Source: Patescibacteria group bacterium
Lineage (GTDB): Bacteria > Patescibacteriota > Minisyncoccia > Moranbacterales > UBA2206
Reading direction: 5' to 3'
Assembly (NCBI GenBank): GCA_030837625.1
Contig: JAUPKF010000006.1
Span: forward strand, 1-45,787
Length of the DNA stretch: 45,787 nucleotides
Positions 3,555 to 26,512 of this stretch are shown one piece after another; positions within the stretch are counted from its first letter, which is position 1; each line of letters opens with the position of its first letter. A program made the translations under genes and the position numbers. The notes below the pieces were generated by a model. The model was not told the DNA's origin, did not search any database, and was given only the letters and a program-made list of their open reading frames with translations.

Positions 3555-4483
3555 AGCTGTCCGTAATAGTGCCGTGTTATAATGAGGAAAAAGTGTTGCA
3601 TCTTCTGGCTGAGAGGTTGGGGGCGGTCTTTCTGGAATTGAAAGCGGATGATTATGAAATAATTTTGGTGAATGATGGCAGCACGGATAGGACGGAAAGC
3701 ATCATAAAGGAGTTGTCGAAAAATAACGGAAAGTATAAAGCCGTACACCTGTCAAGAAATTTCGGGCATCAGGCTGCGCTCTTGGCCGGTCTTGCCCATT
3801 TCACGGGCGACGCGGCATTCTTGCTTGATGCTGATTTGCAGGATCCTCCCGAATTAATAGGACGTTTCATTGAAAAATATAATGAAGGATACGAAGTTGT
3901 TTACGGGGTAAAGAAAGCCAGAAAAGAAAATTTTTTTAAAAAAGCAACTTACAGACTCTATTATAAAATATTGCGAATGTTGGCCGAAATTGATATACCG
4001 CTGGAAAGCGGCGATTTTTGTCTTTTGAGCAGGCGGGTGGTTTCCGTAATCATTTCTATGCCGGAAAGAAACAAATTTCTGAGAGGGCTGAGAAGCTGGG
4101 TGGGATTCAAACAGTATGCGCTGGAGTATAACCGGGATAAAAGGCGGAGCGGGGCGTCTAAATATACCATAAGGAAGCTATTGAAACTATCAAACGACGG
4201 AATCTTCGGTTTTTCAAAGGTTCCACTCAAAGTTTCTTTTTGGCTGGGGATTTTTATTTGTTTGGGCTGTTTTGGGGCCGCAATCATATTTTTTATCCTT
4301 TACCTTATTTCTGATATCCACAATAAACTTCCCGGCTATACTTCTTTGATACTGTCTATATTATTTTTTGGAGGAATCCAACTTTTTGCACTCGGTCTTA
4401 TCGGAGGATATATAGGAAGGATATACGATACAGTGAGAAATCGGCCGGAATATATTATAAAAGGAAAGGACAATATTGTTTAA
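3551..4483 (+). CDS. GT2 polyprenyl-phosphate sugar transferase (ArnC/GtrB/DPM1-like)
   Basis: A 310-residue family 2 glycosyltransferase with a C-terminal membrane anchor. The GT-A core shows VPCYNEE at 7-13, NDGSTD at 41-46, the metal-binding DAD at 93-95 and LQDPPE at 96-101. Two strong hydrophobic helices follow at about 225-255 and 260-290. This architecture is typical of enzymes that move a sugar from a nucleotide donor to undecaprenyl phosphate. The gene overlaps its upstream neighbour by ATGA, so the two are probably translated together, and the membrane protein before it is a plausible user of the lipid-linked sugar. The sugar itself cannot be read from the sequence. Confidence 0.88.
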   Translation: MKLSVIVPCYNEEKVLHLLAERLGAVFLELKADDYEIILVNDGSTDRTESIIKELSKNNGKYKAVHLSRNFGHQAALLAGLAHFTGDAAFLLDADLQDPPELIGRFIEKYNEGYEVVYGVKKARKENFFKKATYRLYYKILRMLAEIDIPLESGDFCLLSRRVVSVIISMPERNKFLRGLRSWVGFKQYALEYNRDKRRSGASKYTIRKLLKLSNDGIFGFSKVPLKVSFWLGIFICLGCFGAAIIFFILYLISDIHNKLPGYTSLILSILFFGGIQLFALGLIGGYIGRIYDTVRNRPEYIIKGKDNIV

Positions 4484-4493
4484 AAGAGCAGCC

Positions 4494-5213
4494 ATGGAAA
4501 AACATGTTTTTGGATCAACAATTGAAATTGAAGATAAAAATTGGTGGTATAGAAGCAGGCGGAATTTGTTAGGGATGCTTATCAAAAAGCACGCCCCGGA
4601 AAATATAGAAAAAAGTTTGGATATAGGCTGCGGAGTCGGTTCTAATTTCAGCCTTCTCAGGGGAGAAGCATACGGTCTGGATATTGACCAAGAGGCGCTG
4701 GCGTTTTGCAAAACGAAGGGGTATGACTATTTAGTGTATGGAGATATTGCCCATAATAACTTTCAAGATAATTTTTTTGATTTGATACTTTGTTCGGAAG
4801 TTCTTGAGCATATTTTCGATGATAGATCCGCCGTAAAAGAAGTTAAGAGAATCTTGAAGCCGGGAGGAGTCGCTATCCTGACAGTGCCGGCGTTTTCTAT
4901 CTTATGGCATGACAATGATATCATTGGCAACCATCACAGGCGCTACAGAAAAAAACAATTTGCTGGCTTGATTGAAAAAGAGGGTTTGAAAATCGAAAGA
5001 ATATCATATTGGAATTTCTTCTTTTTTCTTCCGGCCTTGCTTGTCGTACTTTTTTCTCGACTGGCCGATAAAAAAGATAAAAAAGACCTGAAGCTTAATA
5101 TGGGACCTCGATTTATGGATTATTTTACTGAGCTTTCTTTTTGGGAAAACAAGTTGTTTTTGAGAGTCAATTGGCCATTTGGCACCAGCATCGTTGCCGT
5201 GGTTAGAAAATAA
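4494..5213 (+). CDS. Class I SAM-dependent methyltransferase
   Basis: A 239-residue protein with a Rossmann methyltransferase fold. Motif I is LDIGCGVGS (about 42-50), the acidic end of beta-2 is GLDID, and a post-motif FDLILCSEVLEH follows. The N-terminal NWWYRSRR element is common in methyltransferases of glycan loci. An upstream in-frame TTG at 4476 would add six residues and overlap the GT2 gene. I prefer the ATG at 4494, which has AAAGAG just upstream and gives the usual N-terminus. A hydrophobic patch near residue 180 suggests membrane contact. It probably methylates a sugar or lipid-linked glycan, but the acceptor is unknown. The next gene starts directly after its stop codon. Confidence 0.85.
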   Translation: MEKHVFGSTIEIEDKNWWYRSRRNLLGMLIKKHAPENIEKSLDIGCGVGSNFSLLRGEAYGLDIDQEALAFCKTKGYDYLVYGDIAHNNFQDNFFDLILCSEVLEHIFDDRSAVKEVKRILKPGGVAILTVPAFSILWHDNDIIGNHHRRYRKKQFAGLIEKEGLKIERISYWNFFFFLPALLVVLFSRLADKKDKKDLKLNMGPRFMDYFTELSFWENKLFLRVNWPFGTSIVAVVRK

Positions 5214-5909
5214 ATGAGAAAAATTACGGCGAAACAATTTGTTCGTACCCAATCAACCAGTCTTTGGCGTTATGTTGTTGATGAGGCAATTTGGGGAAGT
5301 CTTTTTTGGGTTCCCACCCTGGTAGGCGTCGGGCTTAGGTATTTTTTTTATGGCTTTCTTTTGAAAAATGACGGTTTTTTTTATGTCGATAATAATGTGC
5401 GGATAAAAATGTTTTCCAATGTGATTCTCGGAAAAAATGCCTATCTTGATTATGGATGTTATTTGCATGCTTGCCCTAGCGGGATAGAAATTGGAGAAAA
5501 TTCGGTCATCATGCACAATAGTGTCATTCATGTTTTCAATTTTGTTGGCCTGCCACATGCATCCATAAAAATCGGGAGAGGCGTATTTATTGGGGAAAAC
5601 TCGGTAATTCGAGGCCAGGGAGGAGTAACAATAGGAAATGATTGTCTTATTTCGCCTAAAGTGTCTATTCTAGCAGTAAACCATTCTTTCGCCAGTGCCG
5701 ATTTGCTTATAAAGGACCAGCCTTTGGATGCTAAGGGGATAATAATAGGAGACGATGTTTGGGTGGGAGGAGGGGCTACCATACTTGATGGAGTGAAGAT
5801 AGGCAGGGGTTCGGTAATAGGTGCGGGGAGCGTTGTGACAAAAGACATCCCTGAGTTTTCAGTCGCAGTAGGAAATCCGGCCAAAGTTGTTAAGAGTAGA
5901 AAAAAATGA
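5214..5909 (+). CDS. Left-handed beta-helix (hexapeptide) acyltransferase, probable sugar O- or N-acetyltransferase
   Basis: A 231-residue protein whose region from about 60 to 225 is built of hexapeptide repeats of the [LIV]-G-x-x-x-x type (for example IEIGENSVI, IKIGRGVFI, VTIGNDCLI, IIIGDDVWV, VKIGRGSVI). A likely catalytic histidine is His157 in ILAVNHSF. It ends in the family hallmark VAVGNPAKVV (217-226). Such trimeric enzymes acetylate sugars from acetyl-CoA in the cytoplasm. The first 50 residues are hydrophobic and aromatic, longer than in a minimal WbbJ-like enzyme. The gene begins immediately after the preceding methyltransferase and overlaps the next one by 4 nt. It might acetylate an amino or hydroxyl group on a glycan precursor, but the substrate is open. 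Confidence 0.88.
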   Translation: MRKITAKQFVRTQSTSLWRYVVDEAIWGSLFWVPTLVGVGLRYFFYGFLLKNDGFFYVDNNVRIKMFSNVILGKNAYLDYGCYLHACPSGIEIGENSVIMHNSVIHVFNFVGLPHASIKIGRGVFIGENSVIRGQGGVTIGNDCLISPKVSILAVNHSFASADLLIKDQPLDAKGIIIGDDVWVGGGATILDGVKIGRGSVIGAGSVVTKDIPEFSVAVGNPAKVVKSRKK

Positions 5910-6716: not shown

Positions 6717-7676
6717 ATGAAGATACTAAATACGATCGGTTCGATATACACCGAAGAGGCGAAGGAATTATTAAAAGGAATAGGCGACGCGGATTATCTG
6801 GACTTGGAAAACCAAGAGCAGCTTAAGGAGATAGTTGGCAATTATGAGATTGCGGTCATCGGGCTTGGATTGAACTATGATAAAGAAGTAATCGACGCGG
6901 GAAGAAAGCTCAAGATAATTGCCACTGCTTCGACCGGAACGGACCATATCGACCTGAATTATGCCCGAAAAAATGGGGTTACAGTGTTAAGTCTGAAAAA
7001 CGATCGAAAATTTTTGGACAGTATAACCGGTACGGCGGAGCTGGCTTTTCTCTTGACCCTGGCACTTATGAGAAACTTTTTGCCAGCTACAAAGTCGACT
7101 CTTGGTTATTGTTGGGCGGATAAATTCAGGGGCCATAATCTATATAAAAAAACTTTGGGAATTGTGGGGCTCGGGAGACTCGGGACAATGATGGCGCGGT
7201 ATGGGAACGCTTTTGGGATGAAAGTCATTGCCTGCGATCCTTATCTGGAAGATAAAGTTTTTTCAAAGACTAATTGTAAAAAAGTTGATTTTGATGTTCT
7301 CTTGAAATCAAGCGACATTATATCCATACACGTTCATCTAAGCGAAGAAACGAAAAACATGTTTGACAGTAGAGCTTTTGAGCTTATGAAAAAAGAGGCG
7401 ATTATCGTCAATACCTCAAGGGGAAAAATTGTCAACGAAAAAGATATCCTTGATGCTCTTAAGAAAAATAAAATCGCGGGATACGCGACGGATGTTTTGT
7501 CGGATGAGTTGAACTTCAACCAGAAGTTTGAAAATAACGCTCTTATAAAATACGCAAAGCGCAACAGCAATGTTATAGTTACTCCACATGTCGGAGGAGT
7601 GACATTCGAGTCTAGGGAGGCGACAGATATCTTTATCGCCAAAAAAGTCATTAAAGAGTTAAATAAATCAAAATGA
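6717..7676 (+). CDS. D-isomer-specific 2-hydroxyacid dehydrogenase (3-phosphoglycerate dehydrogenase-like)
   Basis: A 319-residue NAD-dependent dehydrogenase with the catalytic triad Arg235 (VNTSRG), Glu264 (DVLSDE) and His291 (TPHVGG), and the nucleotide-binding GLGRLG at 151-156. It has the short form of the family, without the ACT domain of full-length SerA. Family members interconvert 2-keto acids and D-2-hydroxyacids. It starts 37 nt after the previous gene and overlaps the following methyltransferase by ATGA, so it belongs to the operon. Its place just before a sialic-acid-synthase-like gene suggests a role in making or modifying a keto- or hydroxy-acid used in the glycan. That is inference, and simple serine biosynthesis cannot be excluded. 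Confidence 0.88.
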   Translation: MKILNTIGSIYTEEAKELLKGIGDADYLDLENQEQLKEIVGNYEIAVIGLGLNYDKEVIDAGRKLKIIATASTGTDHIDLNYARKNGVTVLSLKNDRKFLDSITGTAELAFLLTLALMRNFLPATKSTLGYCWADKFRGHNLYKKTLGIVGLGRLGTMMARYGNAFGMKVIACDPYLEDKVFSKTNCKKVDFDVLLKSSDIISIHVHLSEETKNMFDSRAFELMKKEAIIVNTSRGKIVNEKDILDALKKNKIAGYATDVLSDELNFNQKFENNALIKYAKRNSNVIVTPHVGGVTFESREATDIFIAKKVIKELNKSK

Positions 7677-8503
7677 TGATGAATATCAAGCAAGTCGCTT
7701 TGCTCAACAAGGAAGGCGAAATTATTGAAAGTTTCGGTAAAGGAAAGAAAAAATATCAATCCTCCTCTGTCCTCCCGGTGGTTATTGACTATTATCTTTG
7801 GGACAGCGAGAAACAGCATGATAGCGCCGAGAAATATAAAGATCAAATCAAGCGGGTTTTTTATCAGGAGAAAGTGGAACCAAAAATTAAAAATATGCTT
7901 CAAGATGATATCCAAAGATTAGAATTGGCGCAGAAATTTTCTTATGGAGAAAAAGTTTTGGAAACAGGATGCAGTGATGGAAGCGTAAGTATTAAAATCG
8001 CCCAGTTGCCAAAAGTTAAAAGAGTAGTGGGTATTGATATTCGTCCTTCCGCTATTAAGGATGGAAAATTGTTAATAAAAGATTTAGTCAGAAAGAAAGA
8101 AATAAGTTCCGAAACGGCTAAAAAAGTTTTTTTGCTAAACTATGCCAATGAAAACTTTCCCAGTCGTTATGGACAGTTTGATTCGGTTTGCGCTTATGAA
8201 ATTTTTGAGCATTTGTCCCCGCAGGATCTCCTGCCGATTTTCCAGAGCACGTATAAGTTTTTGAAAAAAAACGGAAATTTTTTTGTCAGTGTTCCCAACC
8301 GTTTTCCCGACAAAAAATATGACAAACTTGGGAGATCAAGATGGAAATGGTTTGATCACCGCAATTTTTTCAGCCAGTTAAGTCTAGAGATGTTTTTAAA
8401 GAAATTTTTTAAACAAGTCAAGTTTCACTCCCTTTATCCGGGAGAAAAAATTGAAGACGGGATATATCTAATTTGTGAGTGCAAGGGAAAATTATATGAC
8501 TAA
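7673..8503 (+). CDS. SAM-dependent methyltransferase
   Basis: A 276-residue protein with motif I VLETGCSDGSV (95-105), VVGIDIRPSAI at strand 2, and SVCAYEIFEHLSPQ before strand 5. About 90 residues precede the fold, longer than in minimal family members, and are charged. The start ATG is one of two consecutive ATGs and overlaps the dehydrogenase stop. Its own stop overlaps the NeuB-like gene that follows by 8 nt. The tight coupling to the dehydrogenase and to the synthase suggests that the three act on one precursor. The substrate is unknown. Confidence 0.82.
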   Translation: MMMNIKQVALLNKEGEIIESFGKGKKKYQSSSVLPVVIDYYLWDSEKQHDSAEKYKDQIKRVFYQEKVEPKIKNMLQDDIQRLELAQKFSYGEKVLETGCSDGSVSIKIAQLPKVKRVVGIDIRPSAIKDGKLLIKDLVRKKEISSETAKKVFLLNYANENFPSRYGQFDSVCAYEIFEHLSPQDLLPIFQSTYKFLKKNGNFFVSVPNRFPDKKYDKLGRSRWKWFDHRNFFSQLSLEMFLKKFFKQVKFHSLYPGEKIEDGIYLICECKGKLYD

Positions 8504-9326
8504 AATAATTGCGGAAATTGCTTCGTGTCACAATGGAGATATTGAGCTGGCGAAAAAAATGGTTCAGGAGGCGGCTAAGACGGGGGTGGATATTGTCAAG
8601 TTCCAATCATGGCAAAGCAAAAATGTTGATGATAAGGATCCTGATAAGAAAAGGTATGCGTCTTTGGAACTTTCCGACGACGCGCATTATATCCTGAAAG
8701 AAGAATGTAAAAAAAACGGCGTTGAGTTTTTGACAACTTGTTATGATGGAAACAGGGTAGGTTTCTTAAAAAAACTGGGGCTTAAAAAAATAAAAGTTGC
8801 CAGTACTGATCTCAAGCATTTTGACTTTCTCAAGAAGTTGAGGGATAATTTCGAAGAAGTCATTGTTTCGACCGGCATGTCGACTGAAGGTGAAATGAAA
8901 AAGGCAGCGGACATCCTGAAAACAGGAAGGTTTACCATTATGCATTGTGTTTCGGTTTATCCATGTCCTTTGGAAAAAGCCAACCTTAAAAAGCTTTTAT
9001 GGCTCAAAACAATAGCCGGATCCGTTGGTTACTCCGACCATGTTCAGGGCGTAGAGGCGGCTGTATTTTCATTGGGTATGGGAGTGGATTACATTGAAAA
9101 GCATTTCACGCTTGATCGGAACATGCCGCAGATAGCCCATACCACTGGGGAGGGGTTAAGGCCGATTACCACGCATACTATCGCTGACGAACCGGAAGTG
9201 TTTCGAGAATTATGCCGATGGAGGGATAAATATGAAATAGCTTTGGGGTCCGGTAGCCTTGAGCTTTTGCCGGAGGAAAGATTAACTCGAGAGAAATATA
9301 CGGGAAGATTAGGGAGGAATAATTGA
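8496..9326 (+). CDS. neuB: Nonulosonic acid synthase, NeuB family, short form without SAF domain (set 1)
   Basis: The NeuB TIM barrel is clear: IIAEIASCHNGD (4-15), VDIVKFQSWQ (31-40), VIVSTGMST (122-130), VGYSDH (177-182) and EKHFTLDR (201-208). The family condenses phosphoenolpyruvate with ManNAc or a related hexose to give a nine-carbon 2-keto acid. At 276 residues it stops soon after the barrel. The C-terminal antifreeze/SAF-like domain, which in NeuB dimers contributes to the partner's active site, is absent. The usual PGPDH-SLEP loop after EKHFTLDR is replaced by unrelated residues with extra His and Thr. I chose the ATG at 8496, which has AAGGGA just upstream, over a GTG at 8475. It is followed directly by neuC and neuA homologues. 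Confidence 0.85.
   Translation: MTKIIAEIASCHNGDIELAKKMVQEAAKTGVDIVKFQSWQSKNVDDKDPDKKRYASLELSDDAHYILKEECKKNGVEFLTTCYDGNRVGFLKKLGLKKIKVASTDLKHFDFLKKLRDNFEEVIVSTGMSTEGEMKKAADILKTGRFTIMHCVSVYPCPLEKANLKKLLWLKTIAGSVGYSDHVQGVEAAVFSLGMGVDYIEKHFTLDRNMPQIAHTTGEGLRPITTHTIADEPEVFRELCRWRDKYEIALGSGSLELLPEERLTREKYTGRLGRNN
9311..9320 (+). promoter_or_regulatory. Strong Shine-Dalgarno that favours a TTG start for neuC set 1
   Basis: AGGGAGGAAT lies inside the 3' end of the neuB-like gene. Its GGAGG core ends 5 nt before an in-frame TTG at 9323 that overlaps the neuB stop. The first in-frame ATG, at 9344, is 26 nt from the core, which is too far. TTG is therefore the likelier start, although family alignments would begin near the ATG. 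Confidence 0.6.
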
Positions 9327-10504
9327 TAACGATTTATAGCATTATGCAAAAAAGAAAGATTTGCTTCATCCTTACTAGTCCTATCCATTATAGTCGGAAT
9401 TTTCTGATTCTTGAAGAATTGAAAAAAAGAAAAGATATCGAACTGCATATCGTTTTAGGCGGTTCAATTCTTCTGAATAAATATATTTCTCATAGTTTCA
9501 ATATCAGAAAGATTCTTCAAGATGAAAAATATGAAAATATCCATGAGGCGCATTTCAACCTGGATGGAGACAATTTAGTCATTAAGTCTAAAACGGTCGG
9601 GTTGGGGATTGTTGAATTTTCATCTATCTTTAACGAAATCAATCCTGACCTTGTGGTGGTGCGCGCGGATCGGTTCGAGGTTATGGCTGCCGCTCTGGCT
9701 GCTTCCTATATGAATATTCCTATTGCTCACATTGAGGGAGGAGACAAAAGCGGGACATTGGACGAATCGGTCAGGCATGCTATCACTAAATTGTCCCACA
9801 TTCATTTTGCGACCAATGAAGATGCTCGCGAAAGAATAATCAGGATGGGAGAAAGGAAGGAATACGTTTTCAATTTTGGCAGTCCGGATATAGAGGTAGT
9901 GAAGCATGTTTTCAATAATGGAAACAGTGTTGATTTGAATAATGAGGGGAGTGGGGCAGATTTCAATCCGAAGAAAGATTTCTTAATTGTTATGTATCAT
10001 CCGGTGACAAGCGAGATTGATAATCTTTCATTGCATACAAAAGAAATCCTCAAAGCTGTTCATGGTCTGGGTATGCAAATTCTTTGGTTCTGGCCGAACT
10101 TTGACGCGGGATCGGAAACTATCTCAAAAGAGCTAAGGATTTTCAACGACATGGTTTCGAGGCACAAGATAAAATTTTTAAAATATCTGCATCCGAAAAA
10201 ATTTATTTTTCTTCTTTCAAAGACAAAATGCTTGGTTGGAAATTCTTCAGCGGGAATAAAAGAATGTTCCTATTTGGGTGTTCCGGTGGTAAATATTGGT
10301 AGCCGCCAAAACGAAAGATTGAGGTCTGACAATGTTTGTGACTGCGGAAATTCAAGCGAGGAAATTATGAAAGCCATTCGCAAACAGATGAAAATAGGGC
10401 GATATAAAACTTCAAATTTATATTCCTCAAACGATACGAGCAAGGATATTGCTGAAGTTTTGGTAAAAAGCAGGCTTTATGCGCAGAAAAAATTTGTCGA
10501 CTAA
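9323..10504 (+). CDS. neuC: UDP-sugar 2-epimerase (hydrolysing), NeuC family (set 1)
   Basis: A 393-residue GT-B-like epimerase. It keeps the NeuC signature block HIEGGDKSGTLDESVRHA (136-153) followed by ITKLSHIHFATNEDA, an ADRFE element (115-119) matching the canonical GDRFE, and GNSSAGIKE near the C-terminus. Hydrolysing members turn UDP-GlcNAc or a derivative into ManNAc (or a 6-deoxy diamino relative) plus UDP, the substrate for the NeuB step. The probable TTG start is supported by a strong ribosome site. An ATG at 9344 would remove seven residues. It sits between neuB and neuA, the expected order for a nonulosonate pathway. The exact sugar cannot be read from sequence. Confidence 0.87.
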   Translation: MITIYSIMQKRKICFILTSPIHYSRNFLILEELKKRKDIELHIVLGGSILLNKYISHSFNIRKILQDEKYENIHEAHFNLDGDNLVIKSKTVGLGIVEFSSIFNEINPDLVVVRADRFEVMAAALAASYMNIPIAHIEGGDKSGTLDESVRHAITKLSHIHFATNEDARERIIRMGERKEYVFNFGSPDIEVVKHVFNNGNSVDLNNEGSGADFNPKKDFLIVMYHPVTSEIDNLSLHTKEILKAVHGLGMQILWFWPNFDAGSETISKELRIFNDMVSRHKIKFLKYLHPKKFIFLLSKTKCLVGNSSAGIKECSYLGVPVVNIGSRQNERLRSDNVCDCGNSSEEIMKAIRKQMKIGRYKTSNLYSSNDTSKDIAEVLVKSRLYAQKKFVD

Positions 10505-10508
10505 ATTT

Positions 10509-11222
10509 ATGAACAAGAAAAAAAGAAAATCAAAAAAAGGCCTGATTGTTGTTCCGGCTCGCGGAGGGTCAAAGGGCATAAAGAATAAGAATATAGTGGA
10601 TGTCGGAGGGGACCCCTTGATTCTTTATACGATTAACCCGGCTCTAAAAATAAAAAAGGATGGCCTGGCAGATGGGGTGATTGTTTCAACAGACAGTCTT
10701 AAAATCGCTGATATTGCAAAGAAACTCGGAGCAGATGTTCCTTTTTTACGGCCAAAGAAAATTTCCGGAGACAAGGCTAAATCAATCGATTTTATACTAC
10801 ACGCTCTTTATCATTTTGAAGAGAGGGGAGTTTTTTTTGATTATGTTGTTTTATTACAGCCGACATCACCTTTGAGAAGTTACGAGGATATAGAAGGAGC
10901 CATAAAACTATATATGGACAGTGAAAACGATTCTTTGATTTCCGTTTGTCGCGAGGAAAGAGTGGATGAAACGGAGCTATATTATAACAAAAAAGGAATA
11001 GGCATTCCGCTTTCGCCGAATCATAACAAGGGGATAAGAAGACAGGATATAAGACCTATGTTTACCAGAAATGCCGCCATATATATAACTGCTACTGAAT
11101 ATCTCAAGAAAGAAAGAAGAATAATTTCAGACAATCCAGCGCTTTATGAAATGCCGATAGAGCGATCGCTTGACATAGACACAAAGGAAGATCTGAAAGA
11201 ACTTCGGAGCATCTTAAGATAA
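10509..11222 (+). CDS. neuA: CMP-nonulosonate cytidylyltransferase, NeuA family (set 1)
   Basis: A 237-residue nucleotidyltransferase with VPARGGSKGIKNKN (15-28), the CTP-binding motif of acylneuraminate cytidylyltransferases. It also has VIVSTDS, LLQPTSPLRS and the late SLDIDTKEDL element that binds metal. The family activates a nonulosonic acid as its CMP derivative. RNAAIYI replaces the usual YxxNGAIY segment, so the substrate pocket may differ. The N-terminus is very Lys-rich. An ATG at 10479, overlapping neuC by 26 nt, has a weak AGCAGG upstream and is an alternative start. The gene closes the first neuB-neuC-neuA set and is followed by a 75-nt gap. Confidence 0.87.
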   Translation: MNKKKRKSKKGLIVVPARGGSKGIKNKNIVDVGGDPLILYTINPALKIKKDGLADGVIVSTDSLKIADIAKKLGADVPFLRPKKISGDKAKSIDFILHALYHFEERGVFFDYVVLLQPTSPLRSYEDIEGAIKLYMDSENDSLISVCREERVDETELYYNKKGIGIPLSPNHNKGIRRQDIRPMFTRNAAIYITATEYLKKERRIISDNPALYEMPIERSLDIDTKEDLKELRSILR

Positions 11223-11297: not shown

Positions 11298-14240
11298 ATG
11301 AAAATTGACTTGAATAGTTTTATTGAGAAATACTGGCTCCCCCTTCTTAAGGAAAATTCAAACAAGAGAAAAGTCATTGAATACAAGGATCCAGATCAAT
11401 TGAAAAGGGAAATAAGTTTTCGGTTGGGGTCAAAAAAGCAAATCGCGAATGGAGAAGACTTGCGAAAACTTTTCGAAAAGGTGATCAAATATACCCCTTT
11501 TTCTTCTCATCCTAATTTTTTGAATTATTTATACTCTGGTCCTGATCCGGTTGGCCTTCTAGGCGACTGGCTGGTTTCTTTTGTAAATTCGAATGTCCAT
11601 GCCTACGAGGCTTCTCCCATATTTTCAATAGCCGAGGTGGAGTTGATAAAAGAGCTTAGGAAATACGTCGGATTCGAAAAAGAAGGCGATGGTATATTTT
11701 GCCCGGGCGGTTCTTATTCAAATTTTTTGGCAGTGTATTGCGCCAAGAAAAAAATTATTGACAAGCTGTCCAAAACAAGAAAATTAGCATTATTCACCTC
11801 GACTCATTCTCACTATTCCATCGATAAAACGGCGGCTGTTTTGGGTTTTGGAGATATTGTGGTTTATAAAGTAGAATGCGATCCAAGGGGCAGAATGATA
11901 GCCGACGATTTGAAAATAAAAGTTGAAAAGTCGGTGAAGAAAAGAGAAGTCCCATTTCTTATTTTTGCAACTGCCGGCACTACCGTTTTGGGGGCATTTG
12001 ATTCGATCGAAGATATTTTTCGAGTAGCCGAGAAGAGCTGTCCGGGGATTTGGATTCACGTTGATGCTGCTTGGGGAGGACCAATTCTTTTTTCAAAAAA
12101 ATATCAAAAATTGATGGAGGGGATCGGAAAAGTTGATTCAGTAACTTGGGATTTTCACAAGGCAATGAACGCTCCCATCTTGTGCTCAGTGCTCCTTTTG
12201 AAAGAAGGATCTCATTTGAAGACAATGTTCAATGTTGAGGACAGCTACTTATTCCATCAAGAAAGAAACAGCGAATATGAGATTGGAAAAAAAACTCTTC
12301 AGTGCGGAAGGCGGGGGGATGCTTTTAAATTCTGGCTGATGTGGCAAGTCTATGGAGCGAAACATTTTGAAGAAGAAATGAACAGAAAAATGTCGGTTGT
12401 GCAAATGGCGATAAAGCTGATAAAGAAGAGGGAGAATTTTTTGCTTTATCGGGATGATATTGACTATTTAAACGTTTGTTTCTGGTATATCCCTCGAAGT
12501 TTGAGAAAAAAAATGAAAAGCAGAAATTTTTCCGTCAAAGAAAAAAAAGAAATCGCTTTTTTCACGAAAAGAATATACCAGTTGATGATAAAAGATGGAC
12601 AGGTTTTGATAAATTTTGCCAAGGTTTTTAATTGTCCGGAATTTTTCCGATTAATAGTCAGCAATCCTAATTTGAATAAAGCGGAGATCGAGAAGGTTCT
12701 CGATGTCATTGATTCGTTAGGAGAGATTCTGGATAAAAATCTCAGCGAGCTTTTGATATCGGGAGGAGATAGTAGGCTTCATTTGGGAAGCAATGGAATG
12801 AATTATGTTTTTACAGCTCCTTTGCCAAAGCCAGATCAAGTTTCTCGATCAAGCTGCACCTCTTCAAGAATTTCCTTGCAAGAAGAGAAGAAGCTTGGAA
12901 AAATACTTCATGGATTGAAGCATGGTGAGTCTTCTTTTTCGGAATGCATGTCGGATGTCCATAGAAGGATCAGAAAAATTATAGATATTGACGAAAATGT
13001 AAGTGTTATTACAACGCCCTCCGGAACAGATAGTGAATACATACCCCTTCTAATAGCTGGGGCTTATACAAGAGATGTTTTGGATGTGAAGAATATAATG
13101 ACTGGTATGGGCGAGATCGGATCCAATTCAGCCGTGGCGGCGGCTGGAAATTATTTCAACTTCAAGACTCCATTTGGATCAAATGTTAAAAAGGGCAGAC
13201 CGCTTCTGAAAATGAATGTCGAAATTATCGGAGTTTCTCAGCGCGATTCACAGACTGGAAAACCTCAGATGAAGAAGGATGAATGGCAGGCTCATGTAAA
13301 GAATGCGCTCCGCAAAAAAGATTCTGTGGTGCTGCTGCATATTCTTGAGTCTTCAAAGCTTGGCTATCGGATCGACGCTATGGGCGAAGTGAAAAAAATG
13401 ATTTCAGATTATTCAGAAAATTTCTTAGTGGTTGTGGATGCTTGCCAGAGCAGGACAGATATTAAAAGAATCAGGGAATATTTAAAGATGGGCTGTATGG
13501 TGATGATTACGGGATCTAAATTTGAAGAAGCCCCTCCCTTTTGTAGTGCAGTACTAATACCGGAGAAAATAATGGCGGGCTTAACATCTAAAGATTTCAA
13601 AAAATTTCCAAAACGACTTTCGGACTTCATTACCTTGCATGACATTTCGGGACCCGTTCGAGAAATGCTGGGTTGTTGCCCAAGAAGTTGGATGAATTGG
13701 GGGTTGATGTTTCGTTGGACAGTAGGCTTAGATAATTGGGAGGAGTACCGAAAAATTTCTGATGCAAAGAGGACTAAGCTTGTCAGGGGCTGGGTAAGAA
13801 GCGTTGCGAAGATGGCAAAAGAATATCCAAATCTTGGTTTCTTTGGTGGAGGGGAAGATCAGCCAGGGTCTGTTGGTGATATCAACACAATTTTTTCTCT
13901 AACGTTAAAACAGGGGCAAAAGCTAATGTCAATTGACAGTGTAAAAAAAATATATGAATGGATGGCAATGAGTCTCGATGAGAATGTCACAAGATATTTG
14001 AAAATAACGAAAAGTCAGAAAGAGACGTTAAAAATATCTTTTTTGCTTGGCCAGCCGGTAGACATGGGGAAGTACGCCGCAATAAGGGTTGCATTGGGAG
14101 CAACACTGGTGGCTAGGATGAACGAAATTGGAGTAAAGAAAATCCTCCTTGAGGATCGGACGCTTCTAACGAAACTTTCGATATTGACTAAAAATTATCA
14201 TACATTGAAGGGCATTTCAAATGAGAGTAACCAGTTATAA
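11298..14240 (+). CDS. Double PLP enzyme: GAD/CSAD-like group II decarboxylase fused to a second PLP-fold domain
   Basis: A 980-residue protein in two halves. Residues 1-485 match group II amino-acid decarboxylases of the glutamate/cysteine-sulfinate type: GDGIFCPGGSYSN (130-142), SHYSIDK (171-177), ATAGTTVLGAFD (224-235), HVDAAWGG (254-261) with Asp256, WDFHK (284-288) with the probable Schiff-base Lys288, and CGRRGDAFKFWLMW (336-349). Residues 520-980 look like another fold-type I PLP domain: SGTDSE (575-580), VVVDACQSR (711-719) with Asp714, and ITGSKFEEAPPF (737-748) with candidate Lys741. The first half should decarboxylate an acidic amino acid. The reaction of the second is unknown. The gene lies between the two neu sets and overlaps the PP-loop gene by 20 nt. 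I know of no characterised enzyme with this arrangement. Confidence 0.82.
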   Translation: MKIDLNSFIEKYWLPLLKENSNKRKVIEYKDPDQLKREISFRLGSKKQIANGEDLRKLFEKVIKYTPFSSHPNFLNYLYSGPDPVGLLGDWLVSFVNSNVHAYEASPIFSIAEVELIKELRKYVGFEKEGDGIFCPGGSYSNFLAVYCAKKKIIDKLSKTRKLALFTSTHSHYSIDKTAAVLGFGDIVVYKVECDPRGRMIADDLKIKVEKSVKKREVPFLIFATAGTTVLGAFDSIEDIFRVAEKSCPGIWIHVDAAWGGPILFSKKYQKLMEGIGKVDSVTWDFHKAMNAPILCSVLLLKEGSHLKTMFNVEDSYLFHQERNSEYEIGKKTLQCGRRGDAFKFWLMWQVYGAKHFEEEMNRKMSVVQMAIKLIKKRENFLLYRDDIDYLNVCFWYIPRSLRKKMKSRNFSVKEKKEIAFFTKRIYQLMIKDGQVLINFAKVFNCPEFFRLIVSNPNLNKAEIEKVLDVIDSLGEILDKNLSELLISGGDSRLHLGSNGMNYVFTAPLPKPDQVSRSSCTSSRISLQEEKKLGKILHGLKHGESSFSECMSDVHRRIRKIIDIDENVSVITTPSGTDSEYIPLLIAGAYTRDVLDVKNIMTGMGEIGSNSAVAAAGNYFNFKTPFGSNVKKGRPLLKMNVEIIGVSQRDSQTGKPQMKKDEWQAHVKNALRKKDSVVLLHILESSKLGYRIDAMGEVKKMISDYSENFLVVVDACQSRTDIKRIREYLKMGCMVMITGSKFEEAPPFCSAVLIPEKIMAGLTSKDFKKFPKRLSDFITLHDISGPVREMLGCCPRSWMNWGLMFRWTVGLDNWEEYRKISDAKRTKLVRGWVRSVAKMAKEYPNLGFFGGGEDQPGSVGDINTIFSLTLKQGQKLMSIDSVKKIYEWMAMSLDENVTRYLKITKSQKETLKISFLLGQPVDMGKYAAIRVALGATLVARMNEIGVKKILLEDRTLLTKLSILTKNYHTLKGISNESNQL

Positions 14241-15849
14241 AAATGATAAGAACAAAAAAATGGATGATTATGTAAAGAGCGGGGCATATAAGTGGAAAAT
14301 CGCTATTCCTTTGAATTGCGACCATGATCTCATTAGATGTGAAGGGGGCGCAAAAATTGACAAAAACTCCGGAAAATTGAATATTAGTGTCCCTGATTTT
14401 CAAGGTAATGGCAGACATATTCTTGTTGTAATCGAGAATAAAAATGATATTGAAATCTATTCTTTTCCCATGAATGTTCAAAGATGTTATGCGAGAATAA
14501 CTGGCAATTATTTAATCGTCAGTAATATCGCAAAGTCTTTAATGAAAGAAAACGAAAAGATTCGACTTAATGGTGAAGTTTTATTAAGACAGATCTCAAA
14601 TTTATTTGCGCCGTTGGACGATCTGTTTGGGGATATAAAATTGCTTGACGCCTCTTCTATTTTTCGGGTTATAAATAACGAAATAATTTTTAAGGAGAGT
14701 CAAATAAAGCCCATAAAGAGTACAACTAGTTCAGTTCAGGAATATATTATTAGCAAGTATGATCGAATATGCAAGGAAGGGAAGCCTTTAGCGGTTCTCC
14801 TTAGCGCTGGCATTGATTCTCGTCTTAATTTGGCATTATGCCATTATTTTTCAAAAAAATATAGGAATGAAATAGTTGTTTACCATGAATACAAGGACAG
14901 AAAAGAACATGACATTGCAAAACATATAGCAGACGAATTGAAACTTCCCTTTGTGAGTATTTCAAGAGATAGATTTAAAAATGAACCATTGGAATATATA
15001 TTATCCCCCGAGTTCATTAGTTTTCATGGTGGAATTTATAGGGATACCCTTGCTAGATGGTTTAGCTATATGGATGTAATAAAGCTGAGCAATCCCGACG
15101 CTACTATTATTGGATTAGCCGGTGACCCTCATAAAGGAAAATTTTATAGGGATATACATCACTTGCCAAATGATCTTGAAAAAATGCTAAAATATAGAAT
15201 GAAGGACGAGAAGATCGCGGAAGAGAAGGATTTTATGCCCTATCTGTCAAATGAAAAGACAGATGAGTTTTTTTCTAGCACCCATAGAAGAGCCTTAATT
15301 TCTAGTGATCCTTGTTTCCAGACGGACTTTATCTTTTACCATGTCCAAGCCGCACAGCAATCTGCCTCGAGAAGCCCATTTTTTCATTTAAACTATAAAA
15401 TTCCTTTTCCGTTAAACGACGACCATTTTCTTTCCATGGCATTCAGCTTGCCAAAAAAGGAAAAAATGGACGCAGCTATTTCTTTAAACCTTATCGAAAA
15501 AATAAATCCGACTCTGAACAGGATACCCTATCATAGCGGAAACGCAGGTGGTTTCAGAAACCGCTACGAAAATTTAATGATTGAAATAATGAGTATGATT
15601 GTTTCGAAAGAAAAAAGTTCAAGCCGTCGGGATGAAGATGTCAGGTGGAATCACCCGAGCATTGTTAGCTATTTGGGTGGCGCTTCCAGCGATATCACCG
15701 AAAAACTCGAGAGGTTTATCAGGGCAAATTTGGGAAAACGACAAAAAAACGGACGAATAAGGGTTGAATGCGCCTTGAGAGTATACTTGTTCCTTCGGCA
15801 AGTTGAAAAAGAGCTGGGAATCAATTTTTTTGTAAATAAAGAATCATGA
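14221..15849 (+). CDS. Asparagine-synthase-like ATP pyrophosphatase (PP-loop) protein without active glutaminase
   Basis: A 542-residue protein. The PP-loop LLSAGIDSR (193-201) corresponds to the SGGxDS ATP-binding loop of asparagine synthetases, and the following 340 residues have the length of that synthetase domain. The N-terminal 180 residues occupy the glutaminase position but lack the Cys2 nucleophile and the RGPD region, so ammonia from glutamine is not expected. Such domains adenylate a carboxylate and can join it to an amine (compare beta-lactam synthetase). GAAGGG lies 8 nt before the ATG at 14221. The gene overlaps the double-PLP gene by 20 nt and the next gene by 4 nt. The amine donor and acid acceptor are unknown. 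Confidence 0.75.
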   Translation: MRVTSYKNDKNKKMDDYVKSGAYKWKIAIPLNCDHDLIRCEGGAKIDKNSGKLNISVPDFQGNGRHILVVIENKNDIEIYSFPMNVQRCYARITGNYLIVSNIAKSLMKENEKIRLNGEVLLRQISNLFAPLDDLFGDIKLLDASSIFRVINNEIIFKESQIKPIKSTTSSVQEYIISKYDRICKEGKPLAVLLSAGIDSRLNLALCHYFSKKYRNEIVVYHEYKDRKEHDIAKHIADELKLPFVSISRDRFKNEPLEYILSPEFISFHGGIYRDTLARWFSYMDVIKLSNPDATIIGLAGDPHKGKFYRDIHHLPNDLEKMLKYRMKDEKIAEEKDFMPYLSNEKTDEFFSSTHRRALISSDPCFQTDFIFYHVQAAQQSASRSPFFHLNYKIPFPLNDDHFLSMAFSLPKKEKMDAAISLNLIEKINPTLNRIPYHSGNAGGFRNRYENLMIEIMSMIVSKEKSSSRRDEDVRWNHPSIVSYLGGASSDITEKLERFIRANLGKRQKNGRIRVECALRVYLFLRQVEKELGINFFVNKES

Positions 15850-17450
15850 TTTTGAAAAATTTATTCAGAAATAAAACAGGCGAAAACATCCAGGAATTCA
15901 TACGCGCAAACAAAAGGCACTGGCGCGATATCAAGGGGTCATCTTCCAATGGCTATATATTGATGCTGTTTAAAAACAGTGTTACTAACTACGTCTTGGC
16001 TCCCAGGACGGTGAAGTCAATAGAAGAGGAAACAGGGTGCCTGCCTTTGGCGATTTTGAATTCTTTCAGTTTTTTGTTTGATTCGAAGAAAAAAATATAC
16101 CAATCTTTCAATATAAACAATTTTATATATTATAAAAATTATTTTTACAATATTTCCGATATCATCAAGTCTTTTTATTTAGCAATTAGGTTTTTTTGGC
16201 GACGTAGGAGTGTTGATGATTTGTTGAAATTAGAATTCAAAGGTATTTATATCGGCGATCTGGTATACGACACTATTTTGAGGAATAATGCCGGCTTGTA
16301 TACTATAGATAAAATCAAATGGACTTATTTTAAATATTTTTTCATTGCGTATTTTCAAACGATTATATATGAGAAAATATTCCAAAGGTATGATATAAAA
16401 TATATTTTTTGCGGATTGTTGATTTTCATAAAATGGGGGATTCCGGCTAGGGTCGCCGACAAGCACGGAGCAGTTGTACTGATAGCCAAAAAGAACCTGA
16501 TGAAAAATTATAAGGGTCTGGATGTTTCTGAAGGGCAGTATCGACCAAGAGAATCAGACGTTAATTTTCTGAAAAAAAGCGAGAAGGTGGAAGCGGATGT
16601 GGACAGGTATATGTCTGAGCGTTTTTCGGGTAGCATAGCTGAGGTGGATGCTATGAGATCTTTCAAAGGAAAAGCCGGATACGATAAGAAAAAATTATGC
16701 GAAACGCTCGGTATCGAAAAAGATAAACCCATAGTTTTTATAATGGCGCATGCTTTTTCTGATGGACCGCATCATTCACCCACGGAAAATCTTCTTTTCA
16801 GGGATTATTATATTTGGTTGGTTGAAACCATAAAGTATGCATCCCGTATAAAAACCGTGAATTGGGTAGTTAAGCCGCACCCGATGTCTTTCAAATATAA
16901 AGAAGAAGGTGCCGTAGAAAAACTAGTAGCCTTGTATGGCAATGCCAATATCCATCTTGCGCCTGGAGATTTCAGCACTAAAAATATCAAGGATTTCGCT
17001 CACGCTATTGTTACCGTACAGGGGAAAGCCGCTTTGGAGTTTGGCTGTTTCGGAATTCCTTCTGTTGTAGCCTCTTTGGCGCCTTATAGCGGATATGGAT
17101 TGGCTGTCGAGCCAAAGATAAAGGAAGAATATTTTGGTATATTAAAAAATATAGGTTCAATTTCCAAGTTGAGTAAAGAACAAATAAAAACCGCCAAAGT
17201 GCTTTCGGCAATTATGTTCATATATTCACGGACCGATGACGCATTGGTGCATGATCTCCCGACCTTCAGAAGCGAGAAGGAAGAAGAAAAATGGAAGCAT
17301 TTCTATGCAGTGATAAAAAGTTATGACAGGTCAAGGGATGGCATGTACCTGCGAATAAAAGATTTGATAAATTTAAATTTTTACAAAAAATACGAATATT
17401 ATGAAGACAAGAAAAATACTGGCAATTATTCCGGCGCGAGGCGGCTCTAA
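15846..17450 (+). CDS. GT-B-like surface polysaccharide protein with KPHP motif (possible glycosyltransferase)
   Basis: A 534-residue protein. The C-terminal half carries WVVKPHPMS (340-348) and VTVQGKAALEFGCFGIPSVV (389-408). This pairing of an HP motif with a downstream Ser/Gly-ALE element is seen in capsule KpsC/KpsS-like proteins, CDP-glycerol transferases and some sialyltransferases. The N-terminal 220 residues are aromatic and not recognised. It overlaps the PP-loop gene by ATGA. Its last 16 codons overlap the start of the second neuA gene by 50 nt. Transfer of a CMP-nonulosonate is a reasonable guess given the neighbours on both sides, but a clear acidic-acidic-Gly sialyltransferase motif is not visible. 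Confidence 0.65.
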   Translation: MILKNLFRNKTGENIQEFIRANKRHWRDIKGSSSNGYILMLFKNSVTNYVLAPRTVKSIEEETGCLPLAILNSFSFLFDSKKKIYQSFNINNFIYYKNYFYNISDIIKSFYLAIRFFWRRRSVDDLLKLEFKGIYIGDLVYDTILRNNAGLYTIDKIKWTYFKYFFIAYFQTIIYEKIFQRYDIKYIFCGLLIFIKWGIPARVADKHGAVVLIAKKNLMKNYKGLDVSEGQYRPRESDVNFLKKSEKVEADVDRYMSERFSGSIAEVDAMRSFKGKAGYDKKKLCETLGIEKDKPIVFIMAHAFSDGPHHSPTENLLFRDYYIWLVETIKYASRIKTVNWVVKPHPMSFKYKEEGAVEKLVALYGNANIHLAPGDFSTKNIKDFAHAIVTVQGKAALEFGCFGIPSVVASLAPYSGYGLAVEPKIKEEYFGILKNIGSISKLSKEQIKTAKVLSAIMFIYSRTDDALVHDLPTFRSEKEEEKWKHFYAVIKSYDRSRDGMYLRIKDLINLNFYKKYEYYEDKKNTGNYSGARRL

Positions 17451-18138
17451 AGGGATTCCGCGGAAAAATATTTTTCCGTTGGCAGGGAAACCTCTCTTGG
17501 CATGGTCTGTCGAAGCGGCGCTGAAGTCAAAACATATTGATAAGGTAGTTGTTTCTTCGGATGATGGTGAGATTCTCGATGTTGCGGAAAAATTTGGCGC
17601 CGAACCGATAAAGAGGCCAAAGTCCATGGCGGAAGACAAATCTCCTTTCAATCTTTTGATTTTTCATGCGTTGGACTATCTAAAGAAAAATAAGAAGTAT
17701 ATTCCGGATACTTTGGTGTATCTGCAACCAACTTCGCCGCTTAGGACGACTGAAGATATCGATCAAGCCTTTTCACTCATGAATGGTGACGTGACAAGCG
17801 TAATAAGCGTTTACAAACTTGATAATAAATTTCTGAAATCATTTCTTGTCGGAGAAAGAGGATATCTACGGGGAGTTGCTAATAAACAGTTTTCTTTTAA
17901 AAATCGCCAGGAATTGCCCGAAGTTTATATGCCCAATGGAGCGATTTATATGGTAAGAAGAGATTTTTTTCAGAGAACAGGTAGACTATTTTCCCCAAAA
18001 ACTGTTCCTTTCGTGATGAGTCAGGAAAAAAGTGTAGATATAGATACAAAAGAGCACATGAGGGAGGTTGAAAAGAAACTGAAAATGCAAAAAAGCAGAC
18101 ATCATCAAGCGATCATGCTATGTTCAAATCTTTCTTAA
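17401..18138 (+). CDS. neuA: CMP-nonulosonate cytidylyltransferase, NeuA family (set 2)
   Basis: A 245-residue protein with AIIPARGGSKGIPRKN (8-23), VVVSSDDGEIL, LQPTSPLRTTEDI and the canonical YMPNGAIYM. It also has KSVDIDTKEHM near the end. It activates a nonulosonic acid with CTP. It is clearly distinct from the neuA of set 1, differing in the acceptor-pocket NGAIY element and in length. The ATG at 17401 must be close to the true start because the CTP-binding motif begins within 12 residues. This forces a 50-nt overlap with the preceding gene. It heads the second neuA-neuB-neuC set. Confidence 0.9.
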   Translation: MKTRKILAIIPARGGSKGIPRKNIFPLAGKPLLAWSVEAALKSKHIDKVVVSSDDGEILDVAEKFGAEPIKRPKSMAEDKSPFNLLIFHALDYLKKNKKYIPDTLVYLQPTSPLRTTEDIDQAFSLMNGDVTSVISVYKLDNKFLKSFLVGERGYLRGVANKQFSFKNRQELPEVYMPNGAIYMVRRDFFQRTGRLFSPKTVPFVMSQEKSVDIDTKEHMREVEKKLKMQKSRHHQAIMLCSNLS

Positions 18139-18190
18139 TTTGTTAGAATGAATAAGCAAAAATACTGACACAATAGGGATATAAAAATTT

Positions 18191-19234
18191 ATGAGTCAAA
18201 AGTTTATCACAATTAGAAGCAGGAAAATTGGACCGGAGTTTCCACCTCTGGTAATTGCAGAAATCGGCATTAACCATGAGGGTAGCATCAAGAAAGCCAA
18301 GCAGATGGTAAAAGACGCGCATTTGGCCGGGGCGGAATGCGTGAAATTCCAAGCTCACGTGGTTGAAGACGAAATGGTCCCGATTGCGAAAAAAATCATT
18401 CCCGGACATGCTAAAGAATCCATCTGGGACATAATGAAAAAATGCGCTTTTTCCGAAGCGCAGGATAGGGAGCTAAAGAAGTACGTCGAGAGTCTCGGGA
18501 TGATATATTTGTCAACGCCTTTTTCACGAGCAGGAGCTGATAGACTCAAAAGAATGGATGTCAAGGCTTTCAAAATTGGCTCCGGAGAATGCAATAACTA
18601 TCCTTTAGTTGAGCACATTGCTTCATTTGGCAAACCGGTCATTTTGAGTACCGGCATGAATGATTTGGCTTCTATAAAAAAGAGTGTGAGAATTCTGGAA
18701 AAATACAAGGTTCCCTACGCGATATTGAACTGCACTTCTATGTACCCAGTTCCTTATGACAAGGTGCGTTTAGGAGCGATTGAAGAATTGCAGAAGGCTT
18801 TTCCTAAGGCGGTTGTCGGCTTGAGCGATCATTCGATTGGAAATTATACATGTTTCGGAGCAGTAGCTTTAGGCGCTCGTATATTGGAAAAGCATTTCAC
18901 TTCTTCCAAAAAATGGCCAGGACCGGATGTTGCGCTTTCAATTGATCCTGCGGAACTCAAGGATTTGATTTTTGGTTCAAAAGCGGTATTTGAGGCGCTT
19001 GGTGGTGGGAAGAATATCCTCCCTGAGGAGCAAGGTATAATAGAATTTGCTTATGCTTGCGTGGTTTCGATCAAAGAAATAAAGAGAGGTGAAAAATTCA
19101 GCAGAGAAAACATCTGGGTAAAGCGTCCGGGAACCGGGGAAATTAAAGCAGTGGAATTTGATAGAATTTTGGGAAGAAAATCTTCCAGAGATATTGAAAA
19201 AGATGTCCAGTTGAAATTAAAAGATGTTATTTGA
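18191..19234 (+). CDS. neuB: Nonulosonic acid synthase, NeuB family, full length with SAF domain (set 2)
   Basis: A 347-residue synthase. The barrel shows IAEIGINHEG (22-31), VKFQAHV (51-57), LSTGMNDL, GLSDHS and EKHFTSSKKWPGPDVALS with the PGPD loop intact. From about residue 287 a C-terminal SAF/antifreeze-like domain follows, containing KRPGTGEIKAVEFDRILGRK. It condenses PEP with a ManNAc-like or 2,4-diamino hexose to give a nine-carbon acid. The NeuB, LegI and PseI subfamilies cannot be separated with confidence by eye. A 52-nt gap separates it from neuA, the largest within this set. The contrast with the SAF-less synthase of set 1 suggests that the two make different products. Confidence 0.9.
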   Translation: MSQKFITIRSRKIGPEFPPLVIAEIGINHEGSIKKAKQMVKDAHLAGAECVKFQAHVVEDEMVPIAKKIIPGHAKESIWDIMKKCAFSEAQDRELKKYVESLGMIYLSTPFSRAGADRLKRMDVKAFKIGSGECNNYPLVEHIASFGKPVILSTGMNDLASIKKSVRILEKYKVPYAILNCTSMYPVPYDKVRLGAIEELQKAFPKAVVGLSDHSIGNYTCFGAVALGARILEKHFTSSKKWPGPDVALSIDPAELKDLIFGSKAVFEALGGGKNILPEEQGIIEFAYACVVSIKEIKRGEKFSRENIWVKRPGTGEIKAVEFDRILGRKSSRDIEKDVQLKLKDVI

Positions 19235-19250
19235 ATCAACCTAGCTTATC

Positions 19251-20411
19251 ATGAAACAAATAAAAAAGAGGAAAATTTTGTTTGTAACCGAACGCCGCAC
19301 TGATTACAGTCGGCTTAAGTCGATTATGGAAGCTGTACAGAAAAGCGAAAAGCTTGAGTTGCAGTTGCTGGTGACCGGGATACACTTGCTGAAAGATTTT
19401 GGGGAAACGAAAAAATTTATCGACAGGGACGGGTTTAAGATAGATGCGATACTGCCAATGTTTTCAGACGAAGATATCGACGACGGATCCTCAATGGTCA
19501 AAGGCCTAGGCAGAGTGCTATCCGGTATGCCTGATATTTTCAAGAAACTCAAGCCAGATATACTTTTTGCCGGTTTTGACATCGGCGCTAATTTTGCGGC
19601 GGCAATAACCGCGATGCATTTGAATATTCATGTGTCGCATCATGAAGGGGGAGAGAGATCCGGAACCATTGACGAGGTAATGCGTCATGCTATTACTAAA
19701 TTTTCCCATGTTCATTTTGCCTGTTCTGACCAAAGCGTAAGACGGATTATAAGGCTTGGAGAGGATCCAAGATATGTTTTTAACGTGGGCGTTCCCAGTA
19801 TTCAAACTATAAAAGAAATTAAATATTGGGATAAAGATAAAATTTTCGAAAAATATGATTTGGACTCCGGCAAAAAATTGATAATTTTTCTTCAGCATTC
19901 AGTAACGACTGAAGTTGATTCAGTCGAAGCGCAGATCAGGGAAAGCGCTAAGGCTATCAACGAAATTATCGATAAACATAAGGTTCAGGCAATTGCCATA
20001 TATCCCAACAATGATGCCGGCGGAAGGCGTATAGTTGAATTCTTAAATCAATCGGGGATAAAAGTGTTTCCGCATATCGACCGCGATGATTTTTTTCGTT
20101 TAATGAAAGTAGCCGATGCTTTGGTGGGTAATTCAAGTTCGGGGATTCATGAGACTCCAACTTTCGGTTTGCCAACAGTGAATGTTGGCACGCGTCAGCA
20201 ATTCCGGGAACGCGGTGGCAATGTTATAGATGCGGGATATGATTCTAGAGAGATAAAAAAAGCGATTGAAAAGGCTCTATCCGACAAAAATTTTTTGCGC
20301 AAATCAAGAAAGGCGAAAAATCCATATGACCAAGGCAATAGCGCTGAGAAGATTGTTCATATTCTGGAAACAATCGATTTGCCGCCTATTCAAAAGGTAA
20401 TAACCTATTAA
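19251..20411 (+). CDS. neuC: UDP-sugar 2-epimerase (hydrolysing), NeuC family (set 2)
   Basis: A 386-residue protein with FVTERRTDYSRL (11-22), HHEGGERSGTIDEVMRHA (130-147) and ITKFSHVHFACSD, plus VGNSSSGIHETP near the C-terminus, all typical of hydrolysing NeuC/LegG epimerases. The usual GDR-x-E element is replaced by GFDIGAN (108-114): Asp110 is kept, but the Arg and Glu are not. This may mark another UDP-sugar substrate, such as a 6-deoxy-4-amino form. It follows neuB by 16 nt and precedes the SDR gene by 5 nt, so one transcript is likely. Confidence 0.87.
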   Translation: MKQIKKRKILFVTERRTDYSRLKSIMEAVQKSEKLELQLLVTGIHLLKDFGETKKFIDRDGFKIDAILPMFSDEDIDDGSSMVKGLGRVLSGMPDIFKKLKPDILFAGFDIGANFAAAITAMHLNIHVSHHEGGERSGTIDEVMRHAITKFSHVHFACSDQSVRRIIRLGEDPRYVFNVGVPSIQTIKEIKYWDKDKIFEKYDLDSGKKLIIFLQHSVTTEVDSVEAQIRESAKAINEIIDKHKVQAIAIYPNNDAGGRRIVEFLNQSGIKVFPHIDRDDFFRLMKVADALVGNSSSGIHETPTFGLPTVNVGTRQQFRERGGNVIDAGYDSREIKKAIEKALSDKNFLRKSRKAKNPYDQGNSAEKIVHILETIDLPPIQKVITY

Positions 20412-26505: not shown

Positions 26506-26512
26506 CTCAAGT

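Follow-up and report, generated by a model that had tools for sequence, protein, structure and literature searches.

Glycan decoration of the kind proposed in this work is already known from three described systems. The flagellin glycan of C. difficile RT027 is Taurine-Ala-Gly-Fuc3N, with taurine and amino acids attached (PMC5207245). In the Pse O-glycan cluster of Tannerella forsythia, which also encodes GtfS, AsnB has been proposed to account for the acetamidino group (PMC6120980). The sfmABCDE genes of Shewanella, finally, form a single operon for flagellin modification that encodes a short NeuB, a methyltransferase and a carboxylate-amine-ligase-like protein of the ATP-grasp type (PMC3765264).

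The window analysed here, a stretch of 45,787 nucleotides, comes from a tiny, uncultured bacterium whose assembly comprises 0.97 Mb in 31 contigs and is 98.5% complete, a genome that by its size and relatives is probably of the Patescibacteria type, and it carries a three-gene block inside a surface-sugar gene cluster (Table 1). The original prediction placed three plus-strand reading frames between a preceding neuBCA set and a following neuABC set, and both the frames and their flanks were found as described. The 4-nt overlap of ORF2 with ORF3 likewise stands as placed, while the 20-nt overlap of ORF1 with ORF2 is uncertain: the only close homologue of ORF2 starts at a Met equivalent to position 14260, so that the true start could lie there, after a 19-nt gap, and the ATG at 14221, which produces the overlap, is preceded by GAAGGG, the better purine stretch.

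Table 1. Features of the three-gene block and its flanks (positions in the window).
Feature	Position	Strand	Description
2-hydroxyacid dehydrogenase and methyltransferase	6717..8503	+	upstream of set 1
Nonulosonate set 1	8475..11222	+	NeuB (short, no SAF), NeuC, NeuA
ORF1	11298-14240	+	980 aa
ORF1 N-half	11298..12740	+	PLP group II decarboxylase, GADL1/CSAD/GAD type; PLP Lys288, Asp256, Tyr79
ORF1 C-half (CHF)	12741..14240	+	fold-type-I, class-V-like PLP enzyme, undescribed family
ORF2	14221-15849	+	542 aa
ORF3	15846-17450	+	534 aa; likely glycosyltransferase, KPHP-motif, GT-B-like
Nonulosonate set 2	17401..20411	+	NeuA, NeuB (with SAF), NeuC

Two further features of the glycan region were recorded. 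The NeuB of set 1 (8475-9326, 283 aa) lacks the SAF domain that the NeuB of set 2 possesses, and is close in length to the Shewanella NeuB-domain protein SfmA (290 aa). At 25048-27418, a gene for a DltB-like MBOAT O-acyltransferase is followed by one for a membrane-anchored protein, a possible DltD/AlgX-type partner.

ORF1 is a single frame without interruption, and the expectation that it fuses a GAD-like decarboxylase to a second PLP fold was borne out. The N-half matches PF00282 over its full length (266 bits), with the PLP lysine and an HVDAAWGG motif, and the C-half is class-V-like; the junction lies after the GAD-like fold has ended (about residues 476-478) and before the first motif of the C-half, LLISGGD (about residues 485-491). 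Residues ~17-478 can be aligned throughout with mouse GADL1 (345 bits), CSAD (343) and GAD1 (341), the nearest solved proteins, and the best plasmid-borne bacterial matches reach only 28-29% identity. In these enzymes, a Ser at the specificity position of GAD accompanies glutamate use, the Phe of CSAD and the Tyr of GADL1 accompany use of cysteine sulfinate or aspartate, and replacement of the Ser by either gives a smaller pocket in which aspartate and cysteine sulfinate are favoured (PMC7367687). The corresponding residue of the N-half, Tyr79, aligns with the GADL1 tyrosine, within a motif that reads NYLYSG in the window and NQLYAG, NQLFSG or NQLSTG in the references. Because of Tyr79, the sequence points to aspartate, cysteine sulfinate or cysteate, rather than glutamate, as the probable substrate, and the N-half is predicted to be a GADL1/CSAD-like acidic-amino-acid decarboxylase. 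Its flexible catalytic loop reads HQERNSEYEIG, two residues fewer than the QQDKxYDVSYDTG of GAD, GADL1 and CSAD, and it is uncertain from the alignment whether the Tyr left in this loop is equivalent to the essential catalytic tyrosine; the short loop counts against a role for ORF1 in amine supply. The same genome also contains a second, distant (29%) decarboxylase-like frame (G000:C30:3598-4410).

The newest part of the finding is the family to which the C-half belongs, here named CHF. The CHF half of the window matches no model in Pfam or NCBIfam, and does not reach the gathering threshold of the class V aminotransferase model (PF00266); among 52 members, 50 are without a Pfam match and two give weak hits. 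An alignment scan of GTDB genomes yielded 116 relatives, mostly from Proteobacteria, of which the best 80 were kept; tblastn located 33 copies on plasmids of the Rhizobium group, and scans of viral contigs returned no relative. GGDxR, SGTD, DxxQxR and TGSKF, together with further Arg residues, are invariant in the 52 aligned members, and the window's protein deviates at three columns that are constant in the other 51 (Y39V, A345G, L464I). With the AlphaFold2 model of the CHF half (pLDDT 90.3), Foldseek retrieved class V aminotransferases and cysteine desulfurases (SufS, AGT), at about 9-16% identity and TM-scores of about 0.4-0.5 on the query. The class V PLP-site motifs TGSKFxxxPxF and DxxQ are present, with the PLP Lys and Asp motifs kept, and the model thus presents CHF as a probable PLP enzyme on a separate, unnamed branch of the class-V-like fold. 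Neither CHF nor the three-gene composition was described in the literature searched. Since fusions with inactive copies do occur among PLP enzymes, the CHF half might be a regulatory or dead partner, with decarboxylation alone of importance; the invariance of the PLP-binding motifs, TGSKF included, and the existence of CHF on its own beside NRPS and transporter genes make this very improbable.

The combination of a decarboxylase, CHF and a carboxylate-amine-ligase-like protein recurs outside the window genome, with ATP-grasp replacing the PP-loop. In 44 of the 84 CHF loci fetched, a separate PLP decarboxylase and an ATP-grasp-like protein lie within 3.5 kb of CHF, and seven more have the ATP-grasp-like protein without the decarboxylase. 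The order decarboxylase/ATP-grasp/CHF is found mostly in beta-, gamma- and deltaproteobacteria, and the order ATP-grasp/CHF/decarboxylase mostly in rhizobia and Hyphomicrobium. By analogy, the ATP-grasp-like protein of the 44 loci, which was classed as RimK/LysX-like from weak similarity to RimK and to a LysX-type structure, would be the chemical counterpart of ORF2. The decarboxylases of these loci make up a DABA-decarboxylase-like group of their own. Wherever the motif was read, the residue matching Tyr79 is His or Gln, and because the pockets differ, these enzymes probably yield a different amine from that of the window. In a locus from Myxococcota (L010), a fold-III DAP/Orn-type decarboxylase (4224-5534), a second fold in the same neighbour role, overlaps CHF by 4 nt, and an SDF symporter follows. 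Three separate kinds of decarboxylase thus accompany CHF: GADL1-like in the window, DABA-decarboxylase-like in the 44 loci and fold-III in L010.

On a CHF tree, built by a quick method and with both the window and a Thermodesulfobacteriota locus (L011) on long branches, the window's CHF groups with L011 and L010. L011 has an SDF dicarboxylate symporter upstream of CHF, and the symporters beside these nearest kin of the window hint at an acidic amino acid as substrate. The decarboxylase/ATP-grasp pairing is spread over the same tree, and the NRPS (12 loci) and dctABD (13 loci) contexts, in which CHF genes stand without a nearby decarboxylase, form one clade each. Within the NRPS group, L028 (1148-3373) shows an NRPS gene followed by CHF, a SerK-like (free-serine kinase) protein of 133-135 aa and a conserved protein of 249 aa from no known family; L007, L008, L020, L031, L033 and L040 are similar, and in L008 nitroreductase/SagB-like and PPTase genes come after the NRPS/CHF set. 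CHF stands beside dctD/dctB in one Rhizobium clade (L009, L058, L062, L064, L066, L067, L069, L072, L080-L083 and L089), with no decarboxylase near and, in most, a DctA-type symporter nearby. A role for CHF in C4-dicarboxylate metabolism was set aside, as the dctABD loci are a single clade. A general flagellin-modification role for the decarboxylase/ATP-grasp/CHF operon was also dropped: flagellar genes are near only 5 of the 44 loci, with flagellin genes adjoining two.

ORF2 had been read as an asparagine-synthase-like protein without the glutaminase Cys, and this holds. By itself it falls below the cut-off of the Pfam asparagine-synthase model (E 0.018), its homologue passes PF00733 (25.8 bits, cut-off 21), and in hhalign its PP-loop aligns with the AsnB loop (E 3e-5). 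The loop reads LLSAGIDSR, and LSAGIDS, an SGGxDS motif with one G changed to A, is present in both homologues. Cys2 is absent whether ORF2 starts MDDY or MRVT, the homologue starts MNEY, and the N-terminal domain is a degenerate, AsnB-like remnant. ORF2 is thus likely an AsnB-type PP-loop protein that lacks a glutaminase and forms amides; beta-lactam synthetase and lasso-peptide cyclase types are likewise AsnB-family proteins without the glutaminase Cys. Structure prediction, confident for the CHF half, gave a pLDDT of 34 for ORF2 alone and was not used there. The description of ORF3 as GT-B-like draws on borderline matches of its homologue, which scores 19.7 bits against a cut-off of 20 for PF05159 (Capsule_synth) and 22.3 bits against a cut-off of 200 for NF046086 (BFO_1060-type GT); ORF3 itself matches neither model. 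ORF2 has no relative on plasmids or in viral-contig scans, and ORF3 has one weak plasmid match.

Close homologues of ORF2 (58%) and ORF3 (55%) were found as one pair, in a genome from another genus of the same family (G023); ORF2 is absent from the rest of the order's 131 genomes, and 44 CHF genomes gave no match to it either. The G023 cluster shows synteny with the window (hydroxyacid dehydrogenase 72%, methyltransferase 71%, NeuB 84%, NeuC 65% identity) and keeps the ORF2-ORF3 pair after set 1, without ORF1. In the ORF1 slot lie an M15-peptidase-like gene (-), a cystathionine-gamma-synthase-like gene (-) and, directly before ORF2, a CysK/SbnA-like gene (+) for a beta-replacement-type PLP enzyme. 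An amino-acid PLP enzyme therefore directly precedes ORF2 in both genomes, and from these gene orders the amino-acid module ahead of ORF2-ORF3 looks exchangeable. The block had been thought to belong between two nonulosonate sets; the second neuABC set is absent at the corresponding place in G023, so that set 2 seems to have been inserted separately, and ORF2-ORF3, which the synteny keeps together without set 2, appear to belong with set 1. At L096, 6756-9934, two PLP enzymes of sulfur-amino-acid type, one CGS-like and one CysK/SbnA-like with an unusual SSGSFAC loop, lie with an M15-like peptidase inside the nonulosonate cluster of a bacterium with a small genome.

The persistence of ORF2-ORF3 without ORF1 in G023 is what the main rival explanation would predict, namely that ORF2 is an ammonia-dependent amidotransferase that places a primary amide or acetamidino group on the nonulosonate, with ORF1 as separate cargo. 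Such a role has been proposed for the AsnB-like gene of one nonulosonate cluster (PMC6120980). However, ORF2 lacks the glutaminase Cys and finds no match to the N-acetyl sugar amidotransferase model in NCBIfam (WbpG/PseA, TIGR03573), and the PLP enzyme ahead of it in both genomes is also at odds with this explanation, which we consider rather unlikely.

The locus differs between the sister genomes in set 2 and in the ORF1 slot, the decarboxylase half has no match in 113 relatives at 1e-20, and both halves of ORF1 are absent from nearly all relatives searched, so that ORF1 was probably acquired by transfer. Variability and absence of this sort would also be expected if ORF1 served general metabolism, supplying beta-alanine or taurine as a solute or CoA precursor, and had been horizontally transferred into a variable glycan region. 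Yet ORF1 is tightly packed and co-directional with ORF2-ORF3, and the position of CHF elsewhere, beside a ligase or NRPS, fits a biosynthetic role better; a place in general metabolism is thus improbable.

The reading preferred here, tentatively and at somewhat less than an even chance, is that ORF1 supplies an amine, which ORF2 couples as an amide and ORF3 transfers into the surface glycan; sequence, fold and neighbourhood are the basis for all that is proposed on substrate and product, on the direction in which CHF works, on the amide bond and on the sugar acceptor. ORF1 would be a two-step amine-supply enzyme. Its N-half would act on aspartate, cysteine sulfinate or cysteate, all of them short acidic amino acids, and decarboxylate them to beta-alanine, hypotaurine or taurine. 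Its CHF half would catalyse a partner PLP reaction within this small pool, in the simplest case making or preparing the decarboxylase substrate. The PP-loop of ORF2 would adenylate a carboxylate, for which the nonulosonate C1, an N-acyl chain or a uronic acid may be candidates, and then form the amide with the amine of ORF1, a coupling suggested because a glutaminase is lacking. ORF3 would move the decorated sugar into the surface glycan of the flanking cluster. Put most simply, a module that supplies an amine or amino acid, represented by ORF1 in the window and by CysK/CGS-like genes in G023, would feed a PP-loop ligase with an adjoining glycosyltransferase, and the gene content suggests that surface sugars may be decorated with a small amine.

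Amine supply is supported by the GADL1-like Tyr79, the intact PLP motifs of CHF, the recurrence of CHF with decarboxylases, the ATP-grasp protein in 44 loci, the missing Cys2 and conserved SAGIDSR loop of ORF2, and the PLP enzyme before ORF2 in G023. Counting against it, the decarboxylases near other CHF genes differ in their pockets and some CHF genes have none. The coupling of ORF1 to ORF2-ORF3 rests on adjacency, because ORF2 and ORF3 occur without ORF1, and CHF without ORF2 and ORF3. The original prediction of making an amine, joining it by an amide bond and transferring it thus survives as a logic, through the acidic-type decarboxylase, the type of ORF2, the 44 loci and the G023 pair, but the three families are not conserved together in anything searched, and the composition is unique to this genome among those searched. 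A wider reading, which we hold doubtful, is that CHF is a PLP family with a reaction of its own, for example beta-substitution that turns an activated serine into an alanine with a sulfur-based or other acid group, whose product is dedicated to the partner decarboxylase and then joined on by ligases of the ATP-grasp or PP-loop kind; the window would show this module in fused form, placing a non-proteinogenic acidic amine onto a nonulosonate-type surface glycan of an ultra-small bacterium.

As an enzyme family, CHF is sizeable, has no Pfam or NCBIfam model and combines a firm PLP fold with strong linkage to decarboxylases and ligases, and the natural fusion in ORF1 shows which two activities go together. 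Solving CHF could reveal a new route of amine supply and, if the glycan proposal is true, a way for reduced-genome bacteria to decorate their surface.

Compared with known systems, the N-half resembles GADL1, CSAD and GAD (PF00282) over its whole length, with the PLP Lys, the Asp and the GADL1 Tyr at the specificity position; unlike them, it is bacterial, fused to a second PLP enzyme, two residues shorter in the loop and located in a glycan locus. CHF shares its fold, the Asp-x-x-Gln and a Ser-Lys-type PLP site with class V aminotransferases and cysteine desulfurases (SufS, AGT, SepCysS). ORF2 has the SAGIDS PP-loop and an N-terminal remnant in common with asparagine synthetase B, although the similarity is weak and ORF2 is confined to two genomes. 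The Shewanella operon contains no PLP enzymes and a TPP enzyme instead (PMC3765264). The T. forsythia cluster, for which neither decarboxylase nor CHF is reported (PMC6120980), shares nonulosonate genes, an AsnB-like protein and a GT-B transferase with the window. The genes of C. difficile RT027 are also different, comprising a D-Ala ligase-like protein, alanine dehydrogenase and acyltransferase with no decarboxylase fusion reported (PMC5207245), but its glycan carries an amide-linked amino compound with taurine.
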